Assembly: GCA_905181875.1 (NCBI GenBank) | Contig: CAJIZH010000006.1 | Coordinates: forward strand, 1-64,000 | Direction of reading: 5' to 3' | Length of the DNA: 64,000 nt | DNA from: Flavobacteriales bacterium UBA6770 | GTDB taxonomy: Bacteria > Bacteroidota > Bacteroidia > Flavobacteriales_G > Salibacteraceae | Part shown: piece by piece, positions 15,714 through 18,088 of the stretch | Position numbering within the stretch: the stretch's first letter is position 1 | Layout of the letters: the number at the start of each line of letters is the position of its first letter | Translations under genes and position numbers: made by a program | The notes under the pieces: generated by a model | Told to the model about the DNA's origin: nothing | Databases searched by the model: none | What the model saw: only the letters and a program-made list of their open reading frames with translations

Positions 15714-15744
15714 TTGCTTTCTCTTAATTAGCCTGCTAAATTTG
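15714..15744 (+). promoter_or_regulatory. Complete Bacteroidota-type promoter of the zapA operon
   Basis: TTG at 15714-15716, a 20-base spacer, and TAAATTTG at 15737-15744: both elements and the spacing fit the housekeeping promoter of the phylum (TTTG-N19..21-TAnnTTTG). Transcription would start near 15748, giving a leader of about 18 bases to the ATG at 15766. Confidence 0.7.
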
Positions 15745-15765: not shown

Positions 15766-16002
15766 ATGACTACTAACAAGGTTGAAAAAATAGGAGAAAA
15801 AGTGGATCGTTTGATTACTGCATATCGCAGCAATATCAAGGAGTTGGAGGTGTTGCGGGCTGAGAATTCTAAACTGCGAAACACTATAAATAATAGCAGC
15901 GAAAGTTCAATGGATAATTCCTTTGAAAATGAGCAAATAAAGAAGAAAGTAGACGCACTTATTTCAGAATTGGATAAGTGCGTTCAACTAATTGCCAAAT
16001 AA
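15766..16002 (+). CDS. Small coiled-coil protein encoded upstream of zapA
   Basis: 78 residues, almost entirely charged heptad-like sequence (KVEKIGEKVDRLITAYRSN, LEVLRAENSKLR, then after a Ser/Asn linker IKKKVDALISELDKC). This predicts a short dimeric coiled coil. The stop codon is directly followed by the zapA ATG at 16003, so the two are one operon with tight coupling. I know of similar unnamed small proteins before zapA in Bacteroidota. By position and shape a ZapB-like division partner is an attractive guess, but no homology can be shown by eye. Confidence 0.7.
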   Translation: MTTNKVEKIGEKVDRLITAYRSNIKELEVLRAENSKLRNTINNSSESSMDNSFENEQIKKKVDALISELDKCVQLIAK

Positions 16003-16299
16003 ATGGGTGCTAAATCTGTTGAAGTTCAAATAGGAAAACGTTCTTACCCAATAGAGGTGGATAATGAAGGAGAGGAGAAAAATGTTTTACTTGCTGCTCA
16101 AATGATCAACGATAATATCAATAAACTCAAGGGAAATTACGTAGTAACAGATTATGTAGATTTACTTGCAATGACCGCGTTAGAATTGGCCAACAATGCT
16201 GATAATAGCGAAAAATTAGAAAATATCGCATTTAATAAATTGATGGATAACGAATTGGATAAGTTGAATAAAAAGCTTGATCAAGTTCTAGATTCATAG
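16003..16299 (+). CDS. zapA: Cell division protein ZapA
   Basis: ZapA bundles FtsZ filaments at the division site. The 98-residue protein has the family N-terminal domain (VQIGKRSYPIEVD, AAQMINDNINKLK near residue 30, TDYVDLLAMTALELANN) and a C-terminal coiled coil (NKLMDNELDKLNKKLDQVL). The start directly abuts the upstream coiled-coil gene. Downstream lie a 6S-like RNA and rny; the zapA-6S RNA neighbourhood is known in Proteobacteria and in Bacteroidota, which strengthens both calls. Confidence 0.88.
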   Translation: MGAKSVEVQIGKRSYPIEVDNEGEEKNVLLAAQMINDNINKLKGNYVVTDYVDLLAMTALELANNADNSEKLENIAFNKLMDNELDKLNKKLDQVLDS

Positions 16300-16332
16300 A
16301 TGTTCTTAAATTATAATCTACTTCGGTAGAAC

Positions 16333-16532
16333 TTTTTGCCCGCATAATTGCGTTTTGTAAACTCAACATTTTAAACGTTGGGAATGTAAGACTTAGAGTA
16401 AAAGAAGGCCTGTTTATCGCGCTTTGGTGCTGAGATTCCGAAAGGGACACTGGACTCTTGAGCTTGAAAAGTTGCATTCCATTCTTGTACTTATTGGAGT
16501 TTACAAGAACTTTTTATGCGGGCATTTTTTTT
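16333..16532 (+). ncRNA. ssrS: 6S RNA (6S-Flavo-like) between zapA and rny
   Basis: 6S RNA binds RNA polymerase by imitating an open promoter. This 247-base gap folds by hand as one long interrupted hairpin: GCCCGCATAA (16338-16347) pairs fully with TTATGCGGGC (16514-16523); TTGTAAACTC (16355-16364) pairs fully with GAGTTTACAA (16497-16506); then a large two-sided bubble of about 16 bases per side; then GGAATGTAA (16381-16389) with TTGCATTCC; and an irregular apical arm. Eight T follow the closing stem, serving as terminator. Size (about 190), bubble and zapA/rny context all fit. Exact ends are inferred; no clear upstream promoter was found. Confidence 0.85.
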
Positions 16533-16546
16533 AACTAAAACTAAAC

Positions 16547-18088
16547 ATGGATATAATAAGTATAGTAATAGGGTTGTTGCCCGGAGCAGTTTTAGGCGCT
16601 GTCGGAGCCAACATAATGCTTAAAAAAAGCTCCCAACAAAAGGCACGAAAATTTCTTGAAGACGCAAAGACTGAGGCCGAAGTGGTCAAAAAAGAAAAGA
16701 TTCTTCAAGCAAAAGAGAGATTCTTGCATTTGAAAAGTGAGCATGAAAAACTGGTAAATGAGAAGAACAATAAAATGTCTCAGGCCGAAAATAGAATTGG
16801 TCAGAAGGAAGAAAGTTTAAACAAAAAACTGAAACAATCAAACCAGCAAGAGGCCGATTATAATCGCAAACAATCTCGACTAAACGATCAGCTGGCCATT
16901 CTTGAAGAAAAAGAAAAAACGCTTTCTAAAGTGTATGCGGAGCATGTTCAAAAATTAGAGCAGGTTTCAAACTTGAGCGCTGAAGAAGCAAAAGCAGAAA
17001 TGACCGAAGCGTTAAAAGAAGAAGCGAGAACCAATGCAATGGCGCTTATTCAGGAAATGACGGAAGAGGCGAAGATCAATGCAAATAAAGAAGCAAAGAA
17101 AATAGTTATTCAAACCATCCAACGTGTTGCAACTGAGCATGCAATTGAAAACTCAGTGTCTGTTTTTAATATTGAAAGTGACGATGTTAAAGGTAGAATC
17201 ATTGGTCGTGAAGGACGAAACATTAGAGCTTTAGAAGCTGCTACAGGTGTCGAAATTATCGTAGACGATACACCAGAAGCAATAATTCTAAGTTGTTTTG
17301 ATCCTGTAAGAAGAGAAATTGCAAGATTATCTCTACACCAATTGGTAACTGATGGTAGAATTCACCCAGCAAAAATTGAAGAAGTAGTTGCTAAAACGCA
17401 AAAACGAATTGAAGAAGAGATAGTAGAAGTTGGAAAACGAACAGCAATAGATCTAGGAATCCACGGATTACATCCAGAACTGTTGCGTATGGTGGGTAGA
17501 ATGAAATACCGTTCTTCTTATGGGCAGAACTTGTTACAGCACTCGCGCGAAGTAGCCAATTTATGTGCTACAATGGCTTCTGAATTAGGATTGAATACTA
17601 AGGTTGCGAAAAGAGCTGGTCTTTTGCATGATATTGGAAAAGTACCGGATGATGAGCCAGAATTGCCACATGCAATTTTGGGGATGAAGATTGCTGAAAA
17701 GTATGGTGAAAAGCCTGATGTTTGTAACGCAATTGGAGCACACCATGATGAGATTGAAATGACTTCAATGATTTCACCACTGGTTCAAGTATGTGATGCT
17801 ATTTCAGGTGCAAGACCGGGAGCTAGAAGAGAGGTAGTTGAATCTTATATACAACGACTAAAAGATTTAGAAACACTTGCAATGAGTCATTCTGGTGTTG
17901 AAAAGGCATATGCCATTCAAGCGGGAAGAGAACTCAGAGTTATGGTGGATTGTGATAGAATTGACGATAAACAAGCTGCTGAATTGAGCTATAAAATCTC
18001 TACTAAAATTCAAGAAGAAATGACTTATCCAGGTCAGGTAAAAGTTACCTTGATTAGAGAGACTAGAGCAGTATCCTACGCTAAATAG
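16547..18088 (+). CDS. rny: Ribonuclease Y
   Basis: Membrane-bound endoribonuclease that starts mRNA decay. The 513 residues follow the family plan: an N-terminal membrane helix ([19 protein letters not shown]), a long coiled coil to about residue 190, a KH domain with [15 protein letters not shown] near 214, and an HD domain with [12 protein letters not shown] near 357 and [10 protein letters not shown] near 405. The C-terminus [15 protein letters not shown] is typical. It follows the 6S-like RNA and lies four bases before a sugar epimerase gene, so those genes may share its transcript. Confidence 0.95.

Follow-up and report, generated by a model that had tools for sequence, protein, structure and literature searches.

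6S RNA is a decoy that shuts down RNA polymerase, and ssrS, the 6S gene of Escherichia coli, has its own promoters. In Proteobacteria, ssrS lies directly downstream of zapA (PMC7641849). 6S RNA is also already known in Bacteroidetes, where it is represented by the family 6S-Flavo (RF01685; Weinberg 2010, PMC2864571), by the 6S RNA and two classes of pRNA detected with dRNA-seq in Bacteroides thetaiotaomicron (PMC7366714), and by the 6S RNA seen experimentally in Flavobacterium psychrophilum (PMC9723704). boxA elements are described from rRNA operons and suhB; a survey of them left out non-coding RNAs, by its own statement (Baniulyte 2017, PMC5725501), and we found no report of a link between boxA and 6S RNA in the open-access literature searched.

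We analyzed a stretch of 64,000 nucleotides from Flavobacteriales bacterium UBA6770 (the window; all coordinates below are on its + strand). The gap between zapA and rny holds a 6S RNA candidate at 16338–16523. zapA (16003–16299, 98 aa; PF05164, E = 2e-11) follows a zapB-like gene (15766–16002, 78 aa) whose match to ZapB (PF06005, E = 0.00099) fails Pfam's cut-off. The rny gene, encoding RNase Y (16547–18088; PF12072, E = 4e-39), starts 23 nt past the 6S stem, a distance of mostly 23–50 nt at other loci. An earlier note on this DNA had placed an RNA in the zapA–rny gap, and the Pfam matches on both sides agree with it. As with proteobacterial ssrS, the 6S gene stands directly behind zapA; however, ygfA/EVE genes come next there and rny here (PMC7641849). 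Elsewhere, in Crocinitomicaceae-like and other genomes (L030–L033, L039, L040, L046, L050, L059, and L083), zapA and rny are just ~40–60 nt apart, with neither the RNA nor the motif described below.

The earlier note had described two perfect 10-base stems, a symmetric bubble of about 16 bases per side, additional pairing past it, and a T run, and all four were recovered in the sequence and the minimum free energy (MFE) fold. The outer closing stem (16338–16347/16514–16523) consists of 10 perfect pairs, with both-sided change in seven of the ten among relatives. The inner closing stem (16353–16364/16497–16508), supported by the MFE fold and covariation, has 12 pairs, including a perfect 10-pair run (UUGUAAACUC/GAGUUUACAA), and an A-U to C-G swap in it is preserved in four relatives. 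The stems enclose a bubble with exactly 16 nt on the 5′ side (16365–16380) and 16 nt on the 3′ side (16481–16496); the 5′ side is the probable region of pRNA start, and the AAC adjoining the stem on that side is invariant in the alignment of relatives. Above the bubble, the fold continues with a stem (16381–16389/16472–16480) and further pairing and branches. A U8 run (16525–16532) follows and, together with the outer stem, resembles an intrinsic terminator; at least five T directly follow the 6S stem in 21 of 22 loci. The fold energy was −61 kcal/mol, compared with −43.0 ± 3.9 in 200 shuffles (z = −4.6), none of which was as good.

Covariation was evaluated in an alignment of the window RNA and 17 relatives (18 sequences). 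Five of these relatives were scanned at Rfam's cut-off, and none was reported. Of the 35 pairs in the consensus structure, 20 show both-sided change. Paired cells amounted to 93.7%, against 81.5% in shuffles and 28–48% when the register was slid, and 86 cells were changed on both sides, against 27 ± 5, exceeding all 500 shuffles; the signal collapsed when the register was slid by a single column. Compensatory change thus preserves the RNA structure. The hallmarks of 6S RNA, namely a closing stem, a large single-stranded central bubble, an apical stem, and covariation, are all present.

At gathering thresholds, Rfam gave no match on the window and no 6S match in scans of 20 close loci. Under permissive settings, RF01685 was the top Rfam family, with a full-length model match at 29.9 bits (E = 0.027 in 701 nt), far below its gathering cut-off of 85 bits. 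A plain RF01685 search of the whole genome returned nothing, but 14 control genomes were equally silent (0/14), so this search carries no weight either way. The covariance search with RF01685, proposed in the earlier note as a check, bore out the family as the best match and failed to reach the cut-off. As an independent test of homology, 80 rny loci across Bacteroidia, gathered by a scan with the Rny protein of the window, were considered. RF01685 scored 102–110 bits in the zapA–rny gap of eight Flavobacteriaceae, and the window RNA occupies the same genomic position as all eight. R1, a covariance model built from the 18-sequence alignment, which includes none of these eight loci, recovered 8/8 at identical coordinates (E = 1.5e-12 to 1.9e-16). 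R1 also matched zapA–rny gaps of Bacteroidales, Owenweeksia, Epilithonimonas, and Flavobacterium. As a Flavobacterium locus (L070) and an Epilithonimonas locus (L095) also fall below Rfam's 85-bit cut-off and yet are found by R1, this cut-off marks a sensitivity limit and not a biological criterion. With strict filters, R1 matches occurred in 43 of 198 genomes of the class, with homologues in many families; the genome of the window has one copy.

The shared zapA–rny position and the recovery of all eight RF01685 loci by R1 make the window RNA, with hardly any room for doubt, a divergent 6S-Flavo orthologue, and the earlier note had correctly named this family. Compared with RF01685 (PMC2864571), it shares the locus, the two closing stems and bubble, the ACUCAACA/GGAGUUU ends, the CUUGA segment, and mutual recognition by covariance models; it differs in its score (29.9 bits against the cut-off of 85), in a longer apical part with two extra hairpins, and in an outer stem that falls outside the Rfam model. 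B. thetaiotaomicron, with its 6S RNA and pRNAs (PMC7366714), belongs to the same phylum.

In Sphingobacteriales, zapA–rny gaps (L034, L037, L038, L041, L042, L047–L049, L051–L053, L056, L075, L085, and L088) have the boxA-like motif described below and, around a large bubble, a long closing stem with a U run. Their RNA was recognized neither by R1 (at most 11 bits) nor by Rfam where scanned, and alignment A2 backs the closing stems alone; we do not claim these gaps as 6S loci, and they probably hold a further diverged 6S RNA. In some Pedobacter (L060 and L084), the motif is kept and the hairpin is much shortened.

Side-by-side comparison of relatives revealed this motif, CGTTCTTTAAA, just past the zapA stop codon. 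Its short core of six bases, GTTCTT, lies at 16302–16307, 2 nt past the stop. An exact GTTCTT was found at most 160 nt upstream of the 6S stem in 37 of 40 6S loci (1.5 expected), and the remaining three differ from it by one base. Nearly all of these 40 loci have the motif within 0–15 nt of the zapA stop; its distance to the 6S stem varies between 14 and 63 nt. In the set of 80 rny loci, it was present in 43 of 51 zapA–rny gaps of at least 160 nt versus one of 29 shorter gaps (p = 2.6e-13), and it was absent after the rny stop (0/79 loci). The motif therefore goes with the RNA rather than with zapA or rny. The GTTCTT core also occurs in both rRNA operons of the same genome, at two places: the leader, ~100 nt ahead of 16S (AAGTTCTTTGAAAAG), and the 16S–23S spacer (TAGTTCTTTGACATG); comparison of the leader (GTTCTTTGAAAAG), the spacer (GTTCTTTGACATG), the window (GTTCTTAAATTA), and the same-genus locus L004 (GTTCTTTAATTT) showed that the core matches. 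Because of this recurrence in the genome's own rRNA leader and spacer, the motif looks like boxA, a candidate NusB/S10 site, and it fits the rrn boxA sequences of E. coli and Bacillus subtilis as well. Like the boxA of rRNA operons and suhB, it has a GUUCUUU(R)A core and precedes a long structured RNA that is not translated, but the RNA served here would be a 6S RNA closing a protein operon (Baniulyte 2017, PMC5725501). We also considered the motif as the −33 box of a promoter and rejected this, given its variable spacing to 6S, its position at the zapA stop, and its recurrence in the rRNA spacer. Of 21 genomes searched for nusB, 19 encode it, among them all three of the same genus; the search did not find it in the window's own assembly (83% complete). 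In three loci of Flavobacteriaceae type (L057, L068, and L151), the boxA position is occupied by GTTCATT, which differs by one base, and one operonic locus (L120) has no boxA of any kind.

Sigma-A promoters of Bacteroidetes carry TAnnTTTG (PMC7366714, PMC9723704). When 1.2 kb upstream of 6S was scanned in 100-nt bins, this motif clustered at −700 to −601 from 6S (32 matches over 39–40 loci), with at most three matches in any other bin, so that the only conserved sigma-A promoter upstream of 6S is the one before zapB. In the window, the zapB-zapA-6S unit has a probable sigma-A promoter at 15714–15744 (TTG, 20 nt, TAAATTTG), with its TAnnTTTG box at 15737–15744. From the 6S start to rny, TAnnTTTG was absent in 19 of 22 loci, and none was found between the 6S stem and rny of the window; a sigma-70-type scan showed nothing relevant on the + strand. 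Judging from these patterns in the DNA, we infer that the 6S RNA here lacks its own promoter and would be made, with boxA controlling the process, as part of a zapB-zapA-(6S)-rny transcript. The boxA-like element and this apparent lack of a promoter both go beyond what the earlier note had claimed.

A class-wide draw of R1 matches, made with no selection for context, motif, or promoter, yielded 42 matches with usable flanks, 33 of which adjoin zapA and/or rny (operonic) and nine of which lie elsewhere (relocated). boxA was present in 31/33 operonic versus 1/9 relocated copies (Fisher p = 3e-6), and an own TAnnTTTG within 60 nt was present in 0/33 versus 5/9 (Fisher p = 1.5e-4), mostly at −12 to −14 of the relocated copies; kinship makes these loci partly dependent, but more than 10 families are represented among the operonic copies and about seven among the relocated copies. 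L151 is an operonic exception, with GTTCAT instead of GTTCTT. One genome (G086) has both an operonic and a relocated copy (L133 and L153). Relocated 6S-like copies without boxA and with TAnnTTTG 12–31 nt upstream are L150, L159, L153 (from G086), L154, and L155, and two of them (L150 and L159) belong to a single genome, G117.

Several other explanations were weighed against these data. A fold arising by chance between two genes is suggested by the sub-threshold Rfam score and by the fact that folds from single sequences can mislead, but the z score of −4.6, the both-sided covariation that beats every shuffle and collapses on a one-column slide, and the homologues in many families make it practically negligible. 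It is very improbable that the RNA acts only in cis, as an elaborate terminator or as a leader of rny, with no trans-acting 6S role: the stem and U8 run do stand 23 nt before rny, but the 16/16 bubble and the conserved inner sequence would be superfluous for termination, homologues with their own promoters exist outside the rny context, and a Bacteroidetes 6S RNA with pRNAs is on record (PMC7366714).

The route of transcription and the nature of the motif leave more room for alternatives. The RNA may be a 6S RNA while GTTCTT is not boxA, being an RNase processing signal or a zapA mRNA element that shares the core; the tie of its position to the zapA stop and its length of only six bases, at a putative NusB/S10 site, would fit this. 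However, the motif is kept in just 1/29 gaps where zapA and rny remain without the RNA, the same core stands before 16S and in the 16S–23S spacer of this genome, and a distance to 6S ranging over 14–63 nt is unlike that of a fixed cleavage site, so we regard this explanation as unlikely. Somewhat less probable again is a degenerate sigma-A promoter, located between boxA and the stem, that drives 6S by itself and leaves the operon as a minor route. In E. coli, 6S has promoters of its own. In F. psychrophilum, 6S was detected as a separate RNA species (PMC9723704). Against this stand the 0/33 operonic versus 5/9 relocated copies with a nearby TAnnTTTG and the confinement of promoter conservation to the site before zapB; moreover, boxA would fall outside the transcript.

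We therefore favor the operon route, and consider it likely that the divergent 6S gene at 16338–16523 is carried on a transcript from the zapB promoter and aided by boxA. Building on the observed structure, synteny, homology, and motif context, 6S function and the route of transcription can be pictured as follows. Transcription would start at the sigma-A promoter before zapB, with 6S as the 3′ part of the zapB-zapA-(6S)-rny transcript. The boxA-like element at the zapA stop may recruit NusB/S10; ribosomes would leave at this stop, and the polymerase bearing NusB/S10 could then cross the untranslated, structured 6S region without Rho termination. Alternatively, boxA may help 6S fold correctly. 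Nus factors are also able to favor termination by Rho or to act chiefly in folding (PMC5725501), so boxA might influence 6S in either direction. The closing stem and U run would act as a partial terminator before rny, with read-through probably supplying rny, and the mature 6S ends would arise by processing and termination. By analogy with other 6S RNAs, the bubble would mimic an open promoter and sequester sigma-A RNA polymerase. Synthesis of a short pRNA on the 5′ side of the bubble, the side being assigned by analogy with E. coli 6S, would then release the polymerase, probably via the conserved UAAACUCAAC.

For Bacteroidia at large, we lean cautiously toward a picture in which antitermination yields 6S as the 3′ product of the zapBA cell-division operon and the NusB/S10 boxA machinery is needed to make it. 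This analysis adds a 6S gene missed by the standard library and a model, R1, able to find others. The results point to an entire bacterial class in which a global polymerase inhibitor may be made under rRNA-type elongation control and from a cell-division promoter. If true, boxA would be used by a non-ribosomal small RNA, 6S output would be tied to free S10/NusB and rRNA synthesis, and ribosome synthesis, division, and 6S would be joined by a direct, testable link.

Structure prediction for the window and several relatives places a small hairpin (16317–16330 in the window) between the boxA-like element and 6S. Its sequence varies among relatives; a role as a boxB/boxC-like partner is conceivable, as is one as a processing site.
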